A stretch of DNA of 39,554 nucleotides from Phycisphaerae bacterium (GTDB lineage Bacteria > Planctomycetota > Phycisphaerae > UBA1845 > PWPN01): the NCBI GenBank assembly GCA_012729395.1, contig JAAYDF010000344.1:1-39554 (forward strand), given 5' to 3'. Numbering within the stretch: position 1 is the stretch's first letter; every line of letters starts with the position of its first letter. Made by a program: the position numbers and the translations under genes. The notes under the pieces are model-generated. The model made no database searches. It saw only the letters and a list, made by a program, of their open reading frames with translations, and was not told where the DNA came from. This document shows positions 7,469-37,821 of the stretch, piece after piece.

Positions 7469-7580
7469 GGCACGCGTTGCAGGTCGCGTTGGCATGAGAT
7501 AACGCGCCGCCGGCTGGCCGTCCTGGGTGCGGGCGTTATAATGCCCTGGTAGGCGCATGACGCACGAAAGGGGTAGAACG

Positions 7581-8384
7581 ATGTCAGGGAAGACCACACC
7601 TTCGGGCGGGAGGTCGGCCTCTGGGAGGCAGGGGGCCGGCGGACAGCCGAAATCCAAGTCCACAGCATCGCGGAAGCAGCCGGGGGCGTCCAAAGCGAAA
7701 GCGGGCAGGGTTTCCGAGGTCGCCGCGGATTCATCGGGCGGCACCAGACCCGCCAAGTCGGGCAAGCGAGCGGGAACGCGTGCGACACGGCCTTCCGCGA
7801 AGTCGGCCGGGAAGGTCGGCCCAACGGGTGCGGCCCTCACAAAAGAGGATCTCGCCGATCAGTTGCTGAGTCGTGCGGAGGCGGATATTGCCGCGGCCAT
7901 CGAAGCCTTAAACAACCAGATGAACGCCGCCCTGGCCAAGCTGACCGAGCTGGCCAGCACCCAATGCGGACGCGGTCAGGTGGTGGTGCGGACCGCCCCG
8001 TTGGATCGGGCGACGGCGACCTTCCAGCGACTGGTGGCCGAGGTGGTCGAGGATCAGCAGGCGGAGATGCTCCCGCCGCTGATCGCCCTGCGCAATGAGT
8101 TAGCCCAGCGGGCCGGTGGCGACGGCGATGCAAACCCGGTCCAGGGCGACGATTTCCACCAGCGCGGTCTGGAAACACTGGACCACGTCCTGCAACTGGC
8201 CGGTGTGCAGTTGTTCACACCGCGGATCGGCGAGCCGTTCGATCCGCTGATTCACTTGGCGGTCGGCGAGGCGCGTCGCGAGGATTTGGAGCAGGGCAGT
8301 GTCGCGGAGACACTCCAGCCGGGCTTCCGCTCGACGCGCGGGAAGATCCTGGCCGCGGCACGCATCCTGGTCAACCGGAGGTAG
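7581..8384 (+). CDS. GrpE-like nucleotide exchange factor with a long basic N-terminal tail
   Basis: The ATG at 7581 follows AAAGGGG with a short spacer and is preferred to an ATG 24 bases upstream. The protein is 267 residues. Residues 1-80 are low-complexity and rich in Lys, Ser, Ala, Gly and Arg. A helical stretch at 87-130 is followed by a GrpE-like body. The C-terminus carries the GrpE signature GEPFDPLIHLAV (217-228), then EDLEQGSVAETLQPGFR and the final KILAAARILVN strand. GrpE releases ADP from Hsp70. Its stop lies four bases before the Hsp70-like start, so the two are almost certainly translated together. The basic tail is unlike the acidic, disordered N-terminus of ordinary GrpE. 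It is divergent, and the identification rests on the C-terminal motif plus its neighbour. Confidence 0.82.
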   Translation: MSGKTTPSGGRSASGRQGAGGQPKSKSTASRKQPGASKAKAGRVSEVAADSSGGTRPAKSGKRAGTRATRPSAKSAGKVGPTGAALTKEDLADQLLSRAEADIAAAIEALNNQMNAALAKLTELASTQCGRGQVVVRTAPLDRATATFQRLVAEVVEDQQAEMLPPLIALRNELAQRAGGDGDANPVQGDDFHQRGLETLDHVLQLAGVQLFTPRIGEPFDPLIHLAVGEARREDLEQGSVAETLQPGFRSTRGKILAAARILVNRR

Positions 8385-8388
8385 TCCG

Positions 8389-9978
8389 ATGGCCAGACTC
8401 GGCATTGACTTTGGAACGACGAACACGTTGGCCGTCGTCCACGACCGCGGCATGTTCTCGATCGCCAACCATCAGGCGAGCACAGGGGCGGGCACGATCG
8501 TGCAAGATGCATTCCCCTCGGCGATCCTGATCGACGGCAAGAGCGGTGAGCGCTGGTACGGCGTCGAGGCCGACCGGCGATTCGCCCAACTGGGGCCGCT
8601 GTGTGATGGCATCTACCTGCCGTCGCTGAAGCGACATCTGCGCGACTACGTGGCGGGCCAGCGACTCTCCTTTGCAGCAGGGCGGGAAGGCGAGGCGGAC
8701 GATCTGGACGTCGTCGAGCTGCTGACCGGTTTTCTATCCGCGCTGGCCGGCTCGATCCGGCAATCGCAGGGCCTCGCCGACGACGAGCCGCTGGAGACGG
8801 TGATCACCTGGCCGGCCAACGCCAACGGGGCCCAGCGGCATGTCACCCGCTCGTGCTTCCGGGCGGCGGGCTTCCAGGTGTTGGATACCCTCAACGAGCC
8901 GACCGCCTCAGCCATCGAGCTGGCGGATTGCCTCACCGCGGGGCGATCCCGCCGAGCGGTCACCGAACCCATGGCGGTCGCGGTTTTCGATCTCGGCGGC
9001 GGAACCTTCGATGCCTCCATGGTCTGGGTTGAGGGGCAGAGCTTCCGCGTTCTGGCCTCGGCGGGTATCGAAAGCCTCGGCGGCGACGATCTCGACCAAG
9101 TTCTGGTGAACATGTTCCTGGATCGGTTGGGCGGTTCGCCGGAGACGGTGTCGCCGTTGACTCGGCACGCGTTGCTGCGGCAGGCCCGGTCGCAGAAGGA
9201 GTCGATCTCGACGGGGGCGGTGCGGAGCCTCTTTCTGAATCCGATGGACTTCGGGCTCAAGGGTCACCCCGTCTCGCTGCCGGTGGACGCGTATTACGAG
9301 CGAATCCGGCCGCGACTGGCACCAGCCGTGGTGCTGCTGGGCGAGGTCATCGAGTCGGCGGCCAAGCGGCAGCCGAATATCACGGAGGCCGGTCGCCTGA
9401 CGGTCTACCTGGTCGGTGGATCCTCGAAGCTGCCCCTGGTGGCCGAGATGGTCTCCGCGGCATTCCCGGACAGCCGGGTGGTGCTCACGGACAAGCCGTT
9501 CCGCTCGGTGGCCATGGGTGCGGCGATCTGTGCGATGGACCGGGTGAGCTACCGCGACGTGTTCGCCCGGCACTTCGGACTGCTGCGGCTACGCGACCAT
9601 GGACGGGTCGAGACGTTCGATACCATCTTCCCGGCCGGCACACCGATCCCTCGTCGCGGTGAGCCGCCGCTGGAGAAGGTCGCCCGCTATCACCCCGCTC
9701 ACAATGTCGGCCATCTGCGCTATCTCGAATGCACGGCGATCGGGTCGGACGGGTTGCCTGCGGACGGGGTCCGCACTTGGTCGGATATCCTGTTCCCATA
9801 TGATCCGGCCCAGTCGCTGACCGCTGAGCTGGCACCGACCGAGATCGAGACCACGGATCGTTTTTCGAATGAGCCGGTGTGCGAAGTGTATCGTTGCGAC
9901 CACGACGGGGTGATCACGGTGGAGCTACGTCGTCCCGCGTGTCGCGACGCCCGGTGCTACGAGATCTTCAGCGAGTAG
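8389..9978 (+). CDS. Hsp70-family ATPase (DnaK-like) lacking the C-terminal lid
   Basis: The start is the ATG at 8389, seven bases after GGAGG. The 529 residues contain a full actin-like nucleotide-binding domain: phosphate-1 LGIDFGTTNT (4-13), connector NEPTASAIE (169-177), phosphate-2 FDLGGGTFDAS (200-210) and the adenosine motif LVGGSSKLP (341-349). About 140 residues follow from 390 on and look beta-rich. There is no room for the helical lid of DnaK (about 640 residues), and no canonical linker (DVLLLDV) is seen. With the GrpE-like gene immediately upstream it forms a self-contained chaperone pair; no J-protein is in the window. The client is unknown. The TAG stop lies inside the arm of a palindromic element. 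Confidence 0.88.
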   Translation: MARLGIDFGTTNTLAVVHDRGMFSIANHQASTGAGTIVQDAFPSAILIDGKSGERWYGVEADRRFAQLGPLCDGIYLPSLKRHLRDYVAGQRLSFAAGREGEADDLDVVELLTGFLSALAGSIRQSQGLADDEPLETVITWPANANGAQRHVTRSCFRAAGFQVLDTLNEPTASAIELADCLTAGRSRRAVTEPMAVAVFDLGGGTFDASMVWVEGQSFRVLASAGIESLGGDDLDQVLVNMFLDRLGGSPETVSPLTRHALLRQARSQKESISTGAVRSLFLNPMDFGLKGHPVSLPVDAYYERIRPRLAPAVVLLGEVIESAAKRQPNITEAGRLTVYLVGGSSKLPLVAEMVSAAFPDSRVVLTDKPFRSVAMGAAICAMDRVSYRDVFARHFGLLRLRDHGRVETFDTIFPAGTPIPRRGEPPLEKVARYHPAHNVGHLRYLECTAIGSDGLPADGVRTWSDILFPYDPAQSLTAELAPTEIETTDRFSNEPVCEVYRCDHDGVITVELRRPACRDARCYEIFSE

Positions 9979-10482
9979 CGGTCGCCTGTCCGGGCAGGGT
10001 GCGCGGGCTGTGGATGTGCTTTGCCGGGACCGTGTACGTCGCTTACGCTCCGCGTTCCCCGCGCTGGCGCTTGGGGCTCGTTGGTCGGCGCTGGCGCCGG
10101 TCGCCACGGGGGGCGACCGCTACGGTTACTGCCGGTCGCCACGGTTCGGTGGATGCATCCGTGGGCAGGATGCGGATGTGCTTTGCCGGGACCGTGTACG
10201 TCGCTTACGCTCCGCGTTCCCCGCGCTGGCGCTTTGGGCTCGTTGGTCGGCGCTGGCGCCGGTCGCCACGGGGGGCGACCGCTACGGTTACTGCCGGTCG
10301 CCACGGTTCGGTGGATGCATCCGTGGGCAGGATGCGGATGTGCTCTGCCGGGACCGTGTACGTCGCTTACGCTCCGCGTTCCCCGCGCTGGCGCTTGGGG
10401 CTCGTTGGGCGGCGCTGACGCCGGTCGCCACGGGGGGCGACCGCTACGGTTACTGCCGGTCGCCACGGGGGGCGACCGCTAC
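9975..10482. repeat. Tandem array of 162-bp units bounded by GTAGCGG-element ends
   Basis: Units begin at 10013, 10175 and 10337 (period exactly 162 bp). The third is partial, ending near 10467. The copies differ by only a few substitutions. Each contains a hairpin, CGGTCGCC / GGCGACCG around a 6-base loop, and the 10-bp palindrome GGATGCATCC. The whole block is bounded by GTAGCGGTCGCC (9975-9986) and its exact inverse GGCGACCGCTAC (10471-10482). The unit is a multiple of three and has no stops in several frames, so repetitive open frames appear on both strands; I do not regard these as genes. The array fills the 512-bp space between the Hsp70-like stop and the DUF58 start. Confidence 0.9.
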
Positions 10483-27053: not shown

Positions 27054-29540
27054 TTACTTGATGAAGGCCTTGAGTAAAACCACGTCGACGACCGGCACAT
27101 CATCGAATCCGGCGAAGGTGCCGGTTTCCACGGTGGCGATGTCATCGACCACGGCCATGGTCTCATCCGTCACCGTGGCGAACACCGTGAACCCTCCGTT
27201 TTGTGCGTCCAGGTTGGCGGAGTTGTCGACCAGATTGAAGAAAAACTGGGATGTGGCCGAGTCGGGATCACCGCTCAGCTTGGCCATGGCCACGGTCCCA
27301 CGGATGTTGCTTCGATCTTCGCCGAACTCGTTGACGATGGGATCGCGCACACCGTCCGCCTCCTCCATCCCGGACAGATATCCACCGCCCTGAATGACGA
27401 AGTCCGGCATCACCCGGTGGAAGATCGTATTGTCGTAAAAACCATCCTCGACGTATTGCACGAAGTTGAGGGCGGTGATCGGCGCTCCGTCGATCAGTAT
27501 ATTGAGGTCGATGTTGCCTTCCGAGGTTTCCAGACGCACCACGGGTTGCGTGGCTACCGTGAGGGTCACCGTGTTTGTCGCCGTGACGCCTTCGCCGTTG
27601 TCTACGGTGAGTTGGAACGTCAGCGCGCTGCCGTCCGCCGCGTCATCGGGAACCGTGAGGCTGGCTCGCTGCGTCGTGGGGTTGTTCAGGGTCACGTCGG
27701 TCCCGTCGATCTGCTCCCACAGGTAGCTCAGTGTGCCGAAACCCGGATCGCTGCCGGAGCCGTCAAGCGTGACGACCAGGCTGGGAATCACCTTGCGGTC
27801 TTCGCCGGCGTCCGCGCCCAAGACAACGACAGTGACTTCATCGCTGGCGGATCCGCCTTGTCCGTCGTCCACTTCCAGGCGGAACGTCAACGTGCTCAAG
27901 GCGGCAGGAGCGGTGAACGTGGCAGTCGCCTGGTCGGCGTGGGTGACTGTGACCTCGGGGCCGGAAACCCGCGTCCAGGTGAACGCCAGCTCGTCTCCTT
28001 CGTCCGGATCACTGCTGCCGGAACCGTCGAGCGTGACCACCGATCCCGCGGCCACGATCTGGTCCTCGCCCGCGTCGGCGATCGGTGCCTCGTTGTCTTC
28101 GGAGTTCACCGTGATGGTCACGGTGTCAGTGCTGGACAGCCCGCGGGCCTCCTCGGTGACGGTGAGCTGGAATGTCAGCGTGCCGACCGATTCCGCGGGG
28201 AACGTGGGCGACTCCTCACTGGGATCGTCAAGGTCCACTTCCGGTCCGGAGGTCTGCAGCCAAGCGTATGCAAGCGTGTTGCCATCGACGGCCGGCCTGC
28301 TGCCCGACCCATCCAGCGTCACGGTGTCGCCAACGAGAACCGTTTGATCTTCACCGGCGTCGGCCACCGGGCGTGCACGGACAACCACCGAGACGCGGTC
28401 GTCGGCTTGGCCGCCATGGTTGTCGCGGACGGTCAGTTGAAAGACCAGCGTGCTGTTCACGTCGGGGGCAGTGAAGGTGGGGCCGGCAACCGTCGCGTTG
28501 CTCAAGGTGACTTCTTCGCCCGAAAGTTGGGTCCAGGCGAAGGTCAACGTATCCTCCGCGTCAGGATCGCTGCTCGCACTGCCGTCGAGCGTGACGGTTT
28601 GGCCTCCGTCTGCCTTCTGATTGGCGCCGGCCCGGGCGGCCGGAGCCTGGTTGGTGGGGGCATTGACTGTGATAATCACTTCGTCGACGCCTGGATCATC
28701 GCGGCCGGCCTCGGTGACCGTCAGCTCGAAGGTCAGCGTCGCAACTGTCGGGGGGGTGAACTTGGGCGTGGCGCTGGTCGGATCATCCAGCTCGACAGCC
28801 GGGCCGGACGTTTGCGTCCAGGCGTAGGTGAGCGTTTGCCCCGTCGTGCGAGCCTTGCTTCCGGTGCCGTCCAAGGTCACCTCGATCCCGGTCCGGGCGG
28901 TTTGGTCGGCTCCCGCGTCCGCCAGCGGCCCCATGCTCGACCATGCCCGTTTGATGTGAATGGTGGTCTGCGGTGCATAGCTCAGCACCGTCCCGTCCTG
29001 TGCGGTCCGCGTGGCGGTGGTGACTTCACCCATGGCCTCGGCGATGTCGAGCCCCTTGATCACCCGCCCGACGACGGTGAAGTCGACCGCTGTGCCGCTA
29101 AAGTCCAGGTCTAAATTATTCGCTAGATTGATAAGCAGATAAGGGACCCCCGATGCTGTGTCCGCCGGGCCGTACATGGCGACCCGGCCCTCGTAGTTGG
29201 CCAGTCCGTTGCCCGATTCATTCACCAGGGAGCGGTTGGTGCTCTTGAGCAAGGTGGACGAGTATTGTCCCACCTTGAGCCAGCGTGCGTTGCGGGCCTC
29301 ATGGACGATGGTACCGTCGTAGTAGCCCTCGTCAGCGGCGGTACGCAGGGCAGCCGCCGCGGTACCCATGTCGGTGAACAGCTCGATGACGATGTAGCCC
29401 TCGCTCGTTGCGAGGGTTAGATATGGCAGGTCAGGCACGGGGAGGGGGGGGCCGCTTTCCGGATCGGGCACCACGGGCGTGCAGTTCAGGCTGGCTGCCG
29501 AAAGGATCAAGGCTACGCTGGCGAGCCGTCGTCGAAACAT
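27054..29540 (-). CDS. Secreted multidomain protein: cyclophilin-like, five PKD-like domains, cyclophilin
   Basis: The ATG at 29540, five bases after AGGAG, opens a signal peptide (RRRLASVALILSAASLNC); a longer frame upstream is rejected. The mature start may be Cys20, but the lipobox (ASLNC) is not canonical. Of 828 residues, about 40-205 form a degenerate cyclophilin-type peptidyl-prolyl isomerase domain (YLTLATSEGYIVIELF, but VHEAR where FHR is expected). About 213-665 contain five PKD/Ig-like repeats, each with DAGxDQ and VTLDGSGS-type motifs. Residues 667-828 are a second cyclophilin domain with FHRVMPDFVIQGGGY and SQFFFNL, the active-site signature. It is likely a cell-surface or periplasmic folding or adhesion protein. 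It is divergent from folK. Confidence 0.88.
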   Translation of the reverse strand: MFRRRLASVALILSAASLNCTPVVPDPESGPPLPVPDLPYLTLATSEGYIVIELFTDMGTAAAALRTAADEGYYDGTIVHEARNARWLKVGQYSSTLLKSTNRSLVNESGNGLANYEGRVAMYGPADTASGVPYLLINLANNLDLDFSGTAVDFTVVGRVIKGLDIAEAMGEVTTATRTAQDGTVLSYAPQTTIHIKRAWSSMGPLADAGADQTARTGIEVTLDGTGSKARTTGQTLTYAWTQTSGPAVELDDPTSATPKFTPPTVATLTFELTVTEAGRDDPGVDEVIITVNAPTNQAPAARAGANQKADGGQTVTLDGSASSDPDAEDTLTFAWTQLSGEEVTLSNATVAGPTFTAPDVNSTLVFQLTVRDNHGGQADDRVSVVVRARPVADAGEDQTVLVGDTVTLDGSGSRPAVDGNTLAYAWLQTSGPEVDLDDPSEESPTFPAESVGTLTFQLTVTEEARGLSSTDTVTITVNSEDNEAPIADAGEDQIVAAGSVVTLDGSGSSDPDEGDELAFTWTRVSGPEVTVTHADQATATFTAPAALSTLTFRLEVDDGQGGSASDEVTVVVLGADAGEDRKVIPSLVVTLDGSGSDPGFGTLSYLWEQIDGTDVTLNNPTTQRASLTVPDDAADGSALTFQLTVDNGEGVTATNTVTLTVATQPVVRLETSEGNIDLNILIDGAPITALNFVQYVEDGFYDNTIFHRVMPDFVIQGGGYLSGMEEADGVRDPIVNEFGEDRSNIRGTVAMAKLSGDPDSATSQFFFNLVDNSANLDAQNGGFTVFATVTDETMAVVDDIATVETGTFAGFDDVPVVDVVLLKAFIK

Positions 29541-29709
29541 GGAGGCTCCTATGCTGTTTGTAGGTTGACTTTGTTTGGCCAGGGGCATTATACGGCTTCT
29601 CTGGCTGTCCACCAATGCCAATGGATGAAGGTAAGTATCGGCTGATTCGCACGTTGGGGCCAATCGAGTTGAGAGGGTGGGCGGCGGGGGCATCGGGGTG
29701 AAAACGGGC

Positions 29710-30189
29710 ATGGGGATGCACGAGGCGTATATCGGCTTGGGATCGAATCTGGGCGACCGGCAGGTCTTGGTATCCTCGGCGGTCCAAGCCTTGCGTTGCT
29801 CGCCCGGGGTCGGGCGGGTTGAAGTTTCCTCCATGTACGAGACGCCGCCGGTCGGTGGGCCGGCCGGACAAGGGTGTTACTTGAACGCCGCCGCCCGAGT
29901 CGAGACCATCCTGGATCCTCCGGAATTGCTGCGGTTGCTGATTGGCATCGAGGAACGGCTGGGGCGGGTCCGCTCCGAGCGATGGGGCGCGCGGACCATT
30001 GACTTGGACCTCTTGCTGTACGAGGACCGGGTTGTGGCGACTGCGGAGTTGACCATTCCGCATCCGCGGATGCACGAGCGTGTCTTCGTTCTTGCTCCGC
30101 TGGCGGAGATCGCCCCTGATGTGTGTCATCCGATCCTGGGTCTGACGGTTCGCGAGTTGCTGGCGTCCCATGGGGTGTCCGACGTTTGA
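29710..30189 (+). CDS. folK: 2-amino-4-hydroxy-6-hydroxymethyldihydropteridine diphosphokinase
   Basis: FolK transfers pyrophosphate from ATP to hydroxymethyldihydropterin in folate synthesis. About 159 residues match the family: the N-terminal AYIGLGSNLGDR, then SSMYETPPVGG, QGCYLNAAARVET, and the signature RWGARTIDLDLLLY with the two metal-binding aspartates (DLDLLLY), then PHPRMHERVFVLAPLAEIAP. ATGs at 29710 and 29716 are both possible; GGGGTG upstream suits the first. The gene is divergent from the cyclophilin/PKD gene across 169 bp. No other folate genes are in the window. Confidence 0.95.
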   Translation: MGMHEAYIGLGSNLGDRQVLVSSAVQALRCSPGVGRVEVSSMYETPPVGGPAGQGCYLNAAARVETILDPPELLRLLIGIEERLGRVRSERWGARTIDLDLLLYEDRVVATAELTIPHPRMHERVFVLAPLAEIAPDVCHPILGLTVRELLASHGVSDV

Positions 30190-35001: not shown

Positions 35002-37821
35002 TCATTGCACCTTGAGTCCGTTCACGATGGCATCCAGTGTCGGTCGGAGGGCCTCGAAGCCGTCCTTGGGTGCGCGGAAGACGAACCAATAAACACGGTC
35101 CTTGCCCAGGATGTACGTACGGTACTCGACCATGGGCTCCTTGTCCTCATAGTCGGCGACGAAGCTGGCCGCGGGCAGGCCCGCCACTTTGTGTTCCTTC
35201 CAGCTTTCCGGTTTGACGGCGTAGCCCTTGAAGAAGCCTTGGAGCGTCTTGATGTCCTTCTCGGCGACGCTGCGGGCGGTTGCTTCCTGCTCCTCTCTTT
35301 CGTGAGCGGTCATCACCGCCCACAGCTCGGGGTCCGGCCCAAAAAGCCGAACGAGCAGATGGTAGCCAGCATCACCTGGTTCGCGGCAGGGCAACCAGCC
35401 TTCCGGCAAGGTGAGCGTGGTCCCCAACGCCTTGTCCTCGAAGACGGATGGTTCCCCTTTCTTGCGGATTGTCACGGGTCGCAGCTCCATCACTGCCGTG
35501 CCCGCGTCGTACTTGACCAGGTACTTGTGCTCGTCGGCGGAGAACCACAAGTGGTGCAGCAACGCACGTGCCTCCCCCGAGTAGACTTCGAGATCGACCT
35601 TGTAGCAATCGAACGTGCCCGCGGGGGCCGTGATCCGTTCTTTGCCGACCACGGTAATGCGGCACTCGACCACCGTGCCGCCCATGACCGTGAAAATGGG
35701 GAACGAGCCGCGGTATTCCTCGGCCAGGGGCATCCTGCGGATCAGGTAAAGGGCCTGCTCGTTGTCGAACGCGACGGTCTCCAGGTCGATGGTTCGGGTC
35801 TTTGTCGGTTCGTTCCATCCTGTCTGGAGAGTCACTTGTCCAGGCTTGTAGACGGCCTGGAAGTCGCCCATCGTCGAGTTTCTGGTTCGGCCGGTGATCG
35901 GCGCGAAGCTGTCGCGTTCAGCCACCACGTCGGTGAATTGATCCATCTCATCCGTGCTGCCGACGGACATATAGGAGCGGACACGCCACGCATCCTTGCC
36001 GTTGGCTTTGGTTAGCTCGGCGGTGTACACGATGCTTCCAATCTCGACATCGGCTGCCGAGATGAGCCGCAGCGGCATGACCTCGCCGTCGGCCCAGGGT
36101 GCGGGCAGCAGGTCCGACGAGGCGGCGGAGATCTGTTGCCGGCCCGCGAGGTTCTTGGCTTTCTTCAGTCCGTCTTCGAACTGCCTGCGTTCCTGGGCGT
36201 GGGTCGGCATGGCTTTGAGGATCATCTCGTAGTAGCGGACCGCATCGTCGTACTTCTTGAGTTCCATCGATGTGGTGGCTAGGCCGCTGAGTGCGGCAGT
36301 CGCCTCGGGCGAGGCCTCGATCGCCTTCCTCCAATACCCCATCGCCTCGTCGACCTTGCCCTCGGCTTTGGCGAGCCAGCCCAGGCCGTTCAGGGCCGCG
36401 GCGTTGGTCGGCTCGATGGCCACGCATTTCGTGAACGACTCTTTGGCGGCCAGCGTCTTGTTCTGGTTGAACTGCGCCCATCCCAGGCCCTGCCAGCCGT
36501 TGGCGTTACCCGGGTCGGCCTGAGTGGCTTTGGCGAACCACTCTTCCGCCTTGGCATGTTTACCCTGCGACCAGAGCCGCCAGCCCCGGGCGAGATCCGA
36601 TTCGGTTGCCGGCCGTTGACCAGTGCGGTTTCTCATCTCTGGCTGTGCCGCCTGATTGATCGCCCTGGCCTGGGCGGCGAGATCCTCGGGAATCGGCGTT
36701 GGCTTGCCATCCGCGCTCCGCGTGGCGAAAAGGATCACGTATGGCTTGGCAGGCACCTTCTCGGGTGTATGGAAGAACGTGTGTTGCGGGCTGTTGATGC
36801 CTACCCAATACACCTTGCCGGGTTCGAGTTGCACGGGCAGCGTGCAGGTCTTGCGGAGGCTATCGTAGGAGGGATCGCCGGAGATCTTGGGAAACGACTC
36901 CTCTGACCGCTGTGTCCATGACCAGCTCGTATCCATCATCGGCCGGTCGAAGGTGACGGTGATCTTCTTGAGCGTGGCGGGTACGTCGCCCGCCAGGGCC
37001 GCCGGCGTGGTGCGTACCACTGCGGGTGTGGAGGAGACCTGCCCGCCCATGGCGGCCGCAGCGGCGGCTTCGTTGATCGCCTTGGCCTGGGCGGCCAGAT
37101 CCTCGGGGATCGGGGTCGGCTTGCCATCCGCGGACCGCGTGGCAAACAGGATCACGTACGGTCTGGCCGGAACCTCATCGGGAGTCTGAAAGAACGTGTG
37201 CTGCGGGCTGTTGATGCCCACCCAATACACCTTGCCGGGTTCGAGTTGCACGGGCAGCGTGCAGGTCTTGCGGAGGCTGTCGTAGGAAGGATCGCCAGCG
37301 GTCTTGGGAAACGACTCCTCTGACCGCTGTGTCCATGACCAGCTCGTATCCATCATCCGCTGGTCGAAGGTGACGGTGATCTTCTTGAGCGTCGCGGGTA
37401 CGTCATTCGCCAGAGTGGCCGGCGTGGTGCGTACCACCCCCGGACCAGGCGTCTCGACCTCGTCTGCCGGGAAGCCCAGCTTGGTGAGTTGTTCCTTGGC
37501 CTTGGCGACGAGTTCCTGCTGCTCTGGATAGAGGCGGATGACGTTGTCGAAGCCTTGGCGGGCATCCTCGTTCTGCCCTCTCTTCAGCAGGCACATGCCG
37601 ATGCGGTAGTGGGCCTCGGCCGCGATTCGCCGGTTGGTTGCGGCTTCCTCGGTGATGCGCAGGTAGAACCTGAGGGCTTCGTTGAGGTCGCCCTTGGTTT
37701 CCTCGGCGTAGATGCCCTTTTCCAGGAGCGTCGCCGCCGGCTCGGCCTTGACGATGTCCGGCCAGCCGGCCCAGCCGATCAGCCTCAGTCCGATCATCAC
37801 GGTCATCATTGGCTTTGACAT
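35002..37821 (-). CDS. Exported TPR protein with duplicated bacterial Ig-like domain
   Basis: The 939-residue protein begins with a short hydrophobic segment (MTVMIGLRLIGWAGW) that may be a signal peptide or anchor. A TPR-like region follows: EKGIYAEETKGDLNEALRFY, then AAEAHYRIGMCLLKRG. Two Ig-like (Big_5 type) domains come next, each with TTPA..LA.DVPATLKKITVTFD and PGKVYWVGINSPQH. Next is a second TPR region (YFAKATQADPGN, ALNGLGWLAKAEGKVDEA), and last a beta-rich C-terminal half ending in a DUF3108-like part. The ATG has GAGGTG eight bases upstream. It heads an operon with the kinase and regulator, and a direct-repeat operator lies 131-148 bases upstream. Confidence 0.9.
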   Translation of the reverse strand: MSKPMMTVMIGLRLIGWAGWPDIVKAEPAATLLEKGIYAEETKGDLNEALRFYLRITEEAATNRRIAAEAHYRIGMCLLKRGQNEDARQGFDNVIRLYPEQQELVAKAKEQLTKLGFPADEVETPGPGVVRTTPATLANDVPATLKKITVTFDQRMMDTSWSWTQRSEESFPKTAGDPSYDSLRKTCTLPVQLEPGKVYWVGINSPQHTFFQTPDEVPARPYVILFATRSADGKPTPIPEDLAAQAKAINEAAAAAAMGGQVSSTPAVVRTTPAALAGDVPATLKKITVTFDRPMMDTSWSWTQRSEESFPKISGDPSYDSLRKTCTLPVQLEPGKVYWVGINSPQHTFFHTPEKVPAKPYVILFATRSADGKPTPIPEDLAAQARAINQAAQPEMRNRTGQRPATESDLARGWRLWSQGKHAKAEEWFAKATQADPGNANGWQGLGWAQFNQNKTLAAKESFTKCVAIEPTNAAALNGLGWLAKAEGKVDEAMGYWRKAIEASPEATAALSGLATTSMELKKYDDAVRYYEMILKAMPTHAQERRQFEDGLKKAKNLAGRQQISAASSDLLPAPWADGEVMPLRLISAADVEIGSIVYTAELTKANGKDAWRVRSYMSVGSTDEMDQFTDVVAERDSFAPITGRTRNSTMGDFQAVYKPGQVTLQTGWNEPTKTRTIDLETVAFDNEQALYLIRRMPLAEEYRGSFPIFTVMGGTVVECRITVVGKERITAPAGTFDCYKVDLEVYSGEARALLHHLWFSADEHKYLVKYDAGTAVMELRPVTIRKKGEPSVFEDKALGTTLTLPEGWLPCREPGDAGYHLLVRLFGPDPELWAVMTAHEREEQEATARSVAEKDIKTLQGFFKGYAVKPESWKEHKVAGLPAASFVADYEDKEPMVEYRTYILGKDRVYWFVFRAPKDGFEALRPTLDAIVNGLKVQ
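36641..37440 (-). repeat. 417-bp in-frame duplication inside the TPR/Ig gene
   Basis: The motif GGCGTGGTGCGTACCAC occurs at 37004 and 37421, 417 bp apart (139 codons), and the sequence between is closely matched. Long stretches, for example the codons for PGKVYWVGINSPQH, are nearly identical in DNA. The two units encode the two Ig-like domains. Such DNA-level identity, including silent positions, points to a recent duplication or gene conversion. Confidence 0.85.

Follow-up and report, generated by a model that had tools for sequence, protein, structure and literature searches.

In the usual view, J-proteins choose the site at which an Hsp70 acts, and GrpE is a generic reset factor. Among the described systems closest to the gene pair reported here, the operon of MXAN_6672 (GrpE) and MxDnaK2 (MXAN_6671) in Myxococcus xanthus has been verified and the interaction of its products shown (PMC11019930). 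The GAP1-N2 GTPase-centric conflict systems of Actinobacteria and Firmicutes encode an Hsp70 and its own GrpE (PMC7159879). For HscA and HscC, the current opinion is that GrpE has become dispensable whereas a J-protein is still used (PMC8215388). The present pair lies in a window of 39,554 nucleotides, the whole stretch of DNA analysed, from contig JAAYDF010000344.1 of the Phycisphaerae assembly GCA_012729395.1. It is a real, dedicated two-gene unit of an Hsp70 and its exchange factor. We give even odds (roughly 0.5) to the reading that this unit is a self-contained, two-protein accessory Hsp70 machine, characterised by an ATP cycle, a private GrpE, independence from J-proteins and a tethering tail.

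As shown in Table 1, the GrpE-like gene lies directly upstream of the Hsp70-like gene. The four bases between them (8385-8388) had been noted in the preliminary description of the locus, whose coordinates, motif and lengths were also right. The element GAAAGGGG is located at 7566-7573, upstream of the GrpE-like start codon, and an in-frame ATG at 7557 is an alternative start. The VNRR end of the GrpE-like protein is a translational signal too, since its two terminal Arg codons double as the ribosome-binding site for the Hsp70-like gene. At the planctomycete junctions read, the final GrpE-like codons supply CGGAGG or AGGAGG at the same place (AGGAAG in G017), the copy L055 described below has CAGAGG at this position, and the gap from stop to ATG is 2-4 nt across the ortholog junctions. 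This junction layout suggests that the two genes are translationally coupled. A search of the window for the heat-shock CIRCE element found none, and neither did a scan for sigma-70-like promoters near the pair, which says little at the GC content of the window. Between the Hsp70-like gene and a DUF58 gene, a 162-bp tandem repeat occupies 10012-10468 (2.8 copies, 98% identity). Since the 99 matches listed in the genome are mostly ~30-60 bp parts of the unit, the array is built from a dispersed repeat family.

Table 1. Positions of the two genes and their parts in the window.
Feature	Position	Strand	Basis
GrpE-like nucleotide exchange factor gene	7581..8384	+	267 aa; start ATG 7581, stop 8382-8384; Pfam GrpE; aligns to solved GrpE; orthologs in relatives
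Basic low-complexity tail, residues 1-97	7581..7871	+	Net charge +14
GrpE core, with its coiled-coil/helical region and, at the C-terminus, the beta-wing (GEPFDPLIHLAVGEARREDLEQGSVAETLQPGFRSTRGKILAAARILVNRR)	7872..8381	+	Pfam match; alignment to E. coli and Geobacillus GrpE
Ribosome-binding site CGGAGG of the Hsp70-like gene	8376..8381	+	Two terminal Arg codons of the GrpE-like ORF
Lidless Hsp70-like ATPase gene	8389..9978	+	529 aa; start ATG 8389, stop 9976-9978; Pfam HSP70; orthologs; own clade; AF2 model
Nucleotide-binding domain, residues 1-385	8389..9543	+	Catalytic equivalents kept; model matches DnaK NBDs
Conserved IIB loop LFLNPMDFGLKGHPVS, residues 281-296, in place of the GrpE-signature region of DnaK	9229..9276	+	Invariant residues in members
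Linker with the entire beta substrate-binding domain and without a helical lid, residues 386-529	9544..9975	+	MAFFT alignment; AF2 model

The upstream product belongs to the GrpE family (PF01025). The Pfam profile is matched nearly over its whole length (residues 105-264 to profile positions 11-163 of 165) with 34.9 bits against a cut-off of 25.8, and the beta-wing domain aligns with the solved GrpE structures 4ani, 1dkg and 3a6m, which include those of E. coli and Geobacillus, its motif being aligned to 1dkg and 4ani. The C-terminal signature claimed earlier, GEPFDPLIHLAV, is present in the ORF. Pfam GrpE also matches all ten GrpE-like members scanned, with no second family in more than one of them. 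By analogy with GrpE, a homodimer of this protein would open the Hsp70 cleft and speed the release of ADP.

The N-terminus, first described as a basic, low-complexity stretch of 80 residues, has this character over about 97 residues, of which 20% are Lys/Arg and 63% are Ala/Gly/Pro/Ser/Thr (net charge in Table 1). The tails of the orthologs are all basic and of low complexity, with net charges of +9 to +35 over 62-132 residues, whereas canonical GrpEs of related genomes have slightly acidic tails (−2 to −7). The character of the tail is kept among orthologs and its sequence is not conserved, which would fit a tether to a polyanion; however, basic tails of low complexity occur widely in bacterial proteins, and their sole effect may be to improve solubility. 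Compared with canonical GrpE, the protein is alike in its helical region and its beta-wing with the DP..H.A motif, but differs in scoring only 35 bits against Pfam, in its basic tail and in a C-terminus nearly fixed as VNRR.

The downstream product matches the Hsp70 superfamily (PF00012) in its nucleotide-binding domain (NBD) with 102 bits against a cut-off of 20.6, and lidless variants still count as Hsp70 by this domain. The equivalents of D8, T11, T12, K70, E171, D194, T199 and D201 are kept in all members, where residue numbers are those of the E. coli DnaK copy aligned with nine pair members. The complete NBD (~1-385) and about 140 further residues reported in the preliminary description were recovered, the remainder being 144 residues. 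The reported absence of the lid also stands, and can be stated more sharply: only the lid (SBDα) is missing, and the beta-sandwich substrate-binding domain (SBDβ) that follows the NBD is complete. In two MAFFT modes, the C-terminal part aligns to the whole SBDβ of DnaK, and all full-length members read end where SBDβ ends.

The AF2 model obtained from orthologs alone was weak, with a mean pLDDT of 55 and a poor C-terminal domain. With 46 sequences, the mean pLDDT was 88.3 and the pTM 0.89, where the input included canonical Hsp70s (DnaK rows) trimmed at the end of SBDβ, which helps to impose that fold. In this confident model, the NBD is followed by ten short strands to residue 525, and lid helices are absent; beyond SBDβ, the chain is too short to contain a lid. 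The model matches DnaK NBDs with Z values of ~37-39, and as a whole aligns to residues 2-505 of ATP-state DnaK (4b9q) with an rmsd of 3.0 over 458 residues. Among the orthologs, SBDβ is as conserved as the NBD (64-77% versus 65-71%), and a complete domain conserved to this level favours the binding of a client or partner over a bare ATPase. A bare NBD or a broken gene was rejected because the complete beta domain is conserved in many genera.

At window positions 9571-9897 (Hsp70 residues 395-503), H395, H438, H442, C448, C498, E499, Y501 and C503 are invariant in all paired members. Such a set of His, Cys, Glu and Tyr residues is unusual for a hydrophobic peptide pocket, and may form a metal site or a polar client pocket. 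Ssz1 and Hsp110 are Hsp70 types that act without refolding clients, and structures of both are among the matches of the model. The window protein could similarly be a non-chaperone switch or scaffold, in which the beta domain is bound to a single fixed partner or makes up an assembly while the GrpE-like protein toggles it; besides these structural matches, the missing lid, the altered linker and the invariant polar H438, H442, C448, E499, Y501 and C503 of the beta domain are consistent with such a role. However, an intact ATPase site and a retained exchange factor would be needless for a static scaffold, and all SBDβ strands appear present, and we regard this alternative as unlikely.

In the Hsp70 tree, which was built by a quick method and has long branches that call for caution, the pair members group with two unpaired short Hsp70s (L046 and L082) in a separate clade, which a branch of 2.7 changes per site with 100% SH-aLRT sets apart from DnaK, HscA, HscC and others. 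The NCBIfam DnaK model gives 101.6 bits against a cut-off of 648. HscA, which is assigned by equivalog score, isc neighbourhood and J partner, is not indicated either (124.8 bits against 708), and HscC is separated by clade and by the lack of a lid in the pair members. An identity as HscA or HscC was rejected by score and tree. The unpaired L046 (G138) and L082 (G122) share the short form and the clade with the pair members, but no GrpE-like gene was seen beside them.

Among 61 related genomes, both the Hsp70 type and the GrpE type occur in ten (66-73% and 45-62% identical to the window proteins, respectively), and the others have neither. The carriers are 8 of the 13 family members examined, the genome of the window included, so that presence within the family is patchy, together with G053 from another family and G017 from a third, where the Hsp70 is masked by N after residue ~36. 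When 114 genomes of the order were searched by profile, no further members emerged; the phylum-wide survey scored few candidates per genome, and more distant members could be missed by it. The named records with the pair are MAGs of Planctomycetota/Phycisphaerae and one MAG recorded as Deltaproteobacteria (L055), which is placed in Myxococcota by its origin label and has the pair in the same gene order with 49% (Hsp70) and 29% (GrpE-like) identity. The plasmid relatives were only generic Hsp70s of ~30% identity. Because G053 nests inside the family of the window in the Hsp70 tree, with modest support, and because a Myxococcota copy exists, the distribution suggests horizontal transfer of a self-contained unit. 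In L048 (CP070782.1, 9280-10000), the GrpE-like gene is split over frames by frameshifts, possibly sequencing errors or decay, and the Hsp70 gene is intact.

Across the nine loci compared, only the GrpE-like and Hsp70-like genes are common to all; the neighbours differ, and no conserved neighbour gives a clue to function. Linked GTPase, FNIII/TPR or DnaJ-fusion genes of the GAP1-N2 kind are not shared across the loci, and the ten larger window ORFs scanned contain no GAP1-N2 partner domain except a TPR in the distant ORF 35002-37821. Another ORF of the window, 27054-29834, encodes several PKD/K319L-like domains and a C-terminal cyclophilin-type isomerase domain. These comparisons bear on whether the pair could be left over from, or be one module of, a conflict (anti-phage) system similar to the GAP1-N2 GTPase-centred ones, where Hsp70-GrpE gene pairs have been described (PMC7159879). 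The patchy presence in the family and the joint occurrence of Hsp70, TPR and GrpE genes on a Rhodococcus plasmid would agree with this origin, but the lack of any further gene common to all loci and the placement of the Rhodococcus-plasmid-type Hsp70 in another clade make it highly improbable.

On that plasmid, from Rhodococcus pseudokoreensis (L136, 4989-8195), Hsp70, TPR, GrpE and FtsK/SpoIIIE-domain genes follow one another, with a TniQ gene and a recombinase gene nearby. A second, different pair, in which the GrpE-like gene precedes the Hsp70 family gene and the gene ends overlap, was observed in L132 (847-3233, G002:C31) and L131 (G010:C25); these Hsp70s lack the equivalent of R167 and group with the Rhodococcus plasmid Hsp70. 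Since Hsp70 and GrpE are joined in the MxDnaK2 operon, in the GAP1-N2 systems and in this different pair of G002 and G010, it seems that such pairs originated on more than one occasion.

The source genome (5.7 Mb, 99.6% complete) was searched for a separate canonical dnaK-grpE system, and yielded a further grpE as well as DnaK and HscA, both of them full-length Hsp70s. The canonical grpE adjoins dnaJ on contig C181, the full dnaK is on C269, and the true HscA of the genome is encoded on C59 in an hscB-like/hscA/ferredoxin cluster. J-domains were found on C260, as a CbpA-like J-protein, on C181 and, weakly, on C59; the contig of the window gave no J-domain match, in agreement with the earlier remark that no DnaJ is nearby. 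Canonical GrpE is also present in nine of the ten pair-bearing genomes. The pair is thus an extra system beside the normal one; its candidacy as the main system was rejected, as canonical grpE, dnaK and dnaJ lie elsewhere. The preliminary description had named two findings that would tell against its proposal, namely a genome with no other grpE or dnaK and a C-terminus that folds with a lid; the genome has other copies of both genes, and the C-terminus has no lid. Its proposal, in which the Hsp70 departs from the canonical type and has an exchange factor to itself, is well supported by the conserved coupling, the perfect co-occurrence, the separate clade and the canonical systems elsewhere; either of the two roles that it offered, chaperone or non-chaperone Hsp70, may apply.

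Four DnaK residues are relevant to J-protein docking. Y145 and D148 we take, from the DnaK-DnaJ structure literature, to be J-domain contacts; R167 and Q378 are such contacts (PMC8215388). Among DnaK/HscA-like proteins, R167 is R in 33 of 33 and Q378 is Q in 32 of 33, and R167 is kept in E. coli HscC as well. In the pair members, all four are replaced in 9 of 9: the R167 position is D, S or G, the Q378 position is C, Y145 is N and D148 is G, and D388 is changed to R or Q. N170, T173 and V218 are kept in all members and D393 in most, and the VLLL core of the linker is VxYR in most. The lost contacts may leave room for a different docking mode.

The salt bridges K55-E267 and R56-E264 hold the DnaK cleft (PMC8215388). 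In all nine members, the K55-E267 equivalent is D/E-R, with the charges swapped, which could retain the bridge as judged from the alignment rather than from distances; E. coli HscA is without this bridge. The second bridge is lost, the E264 position being R or H. In the IIB loop, L281, F282, N284, P285, D287, G289 and P294 are invariant in nine planctomycete members, and L055 keeps L281, P285, D287 and G289. According to the alignment, this FLNPxDFGLxG loop lies where GrpE binds DnaK, and it is absent from the unpaired L046. We read this residue pattern as that of an Hsp70 which probably needs its own exchange factor and is not built for J-domains.

The pair could instead be an accessory chaperone of the ordinary kind, which is equipped with a separate exchange factor but relies on the J-proteins of the housekeeping system (the CbpA-like protein on C260 or DnaJ on C181) in the manner of MxDnaK2. 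J-proteins are present in the genome, interaction with J-proteins is retained by MxDnaK2 although its operon supplies the GrpE MXAN_6672 (PMC11019930), and the kept D393, N170, T173 and V218 are in line with such borrowing. However, the replacement of R167, Y145, D148 and Q378 extends over the clade, L055 included, and the altered linker and the low NCBIfam DnaK score also argue against it, making this alternative quite unlikely.

In the self-contained machine that we prefer, the Hsp70 would hydrolyse ATP and stay nucleotide-tight, and the private GrpE-like dimer would reset it to the open ATP state via the redesigned IIB loop. As the residues for J-domain contact are gone, the client or partner itself, and no J-protein, would start the cycle. 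Because the lid is absent, binding would be fast and weak, which would suit a limited range of folded or extended partners better than refolding in general. Through its disordered basic tail, the GrpE-like protein may tether the machine to DNA, RNA, the ribosome, polyphosphate or a similar polyanion, where the client would be released. A J-protein-independent two-protein machine in which the lidless Hsp70 is driven by client and ATP only, and is targeted by a nucleic-acid-binding tail of the exchanger, is put forward tentatively, as something rather doubtful. If it is true, the exchanger, and not a J-protein, would decide where the Hsp70 works.

Compared with MxDnaK2, the locus is alike in having an extra grpE directly upstream of an extra Hsp70 gene in a bicistronic arrangement, with the canonical system elsewhere. 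However, MxDnaK2 is full-length, has a lid, is 62% identical to E. coli DnaK and uses J-proteins (PMC11019930), whereas the window Hsp70 is lidless, ~25% identical to canonical Hsp70s and has lost the J contacts. The GAP1-N2 systems likewise encode an Hsp70 and its own GrpE together, but sit with GTPases and FNIII/DnaJ or TPR proteins, whereas the window pair has no conserved neighbour and its Hsp70 falls in a different clade from the single plasmid Hsp70 of GAP1-N2 kind tested. In the part of the literature covered, no lidless Hsp70 without J contacts having its own GrpE is described. The pairing itself is known; what is new is the combination of a missing lid, lost J contacts, a redesigned GrpE loop and a basic-tailed exchange factor. 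This makes the pair a small natural test of the separate contributions of lid, J-protein and exchange factor. Specialised bacterial Hsp70s beside DnaK also include HscA and HscC, but these have a lid, keep R167 and use J-proteins, and are believed to act without GrpE (PMC8215388). The window pair is the opposite of this pattern: the J contacts are lost, and GrpE is kept and privatised, with a tail that is possibly localising.
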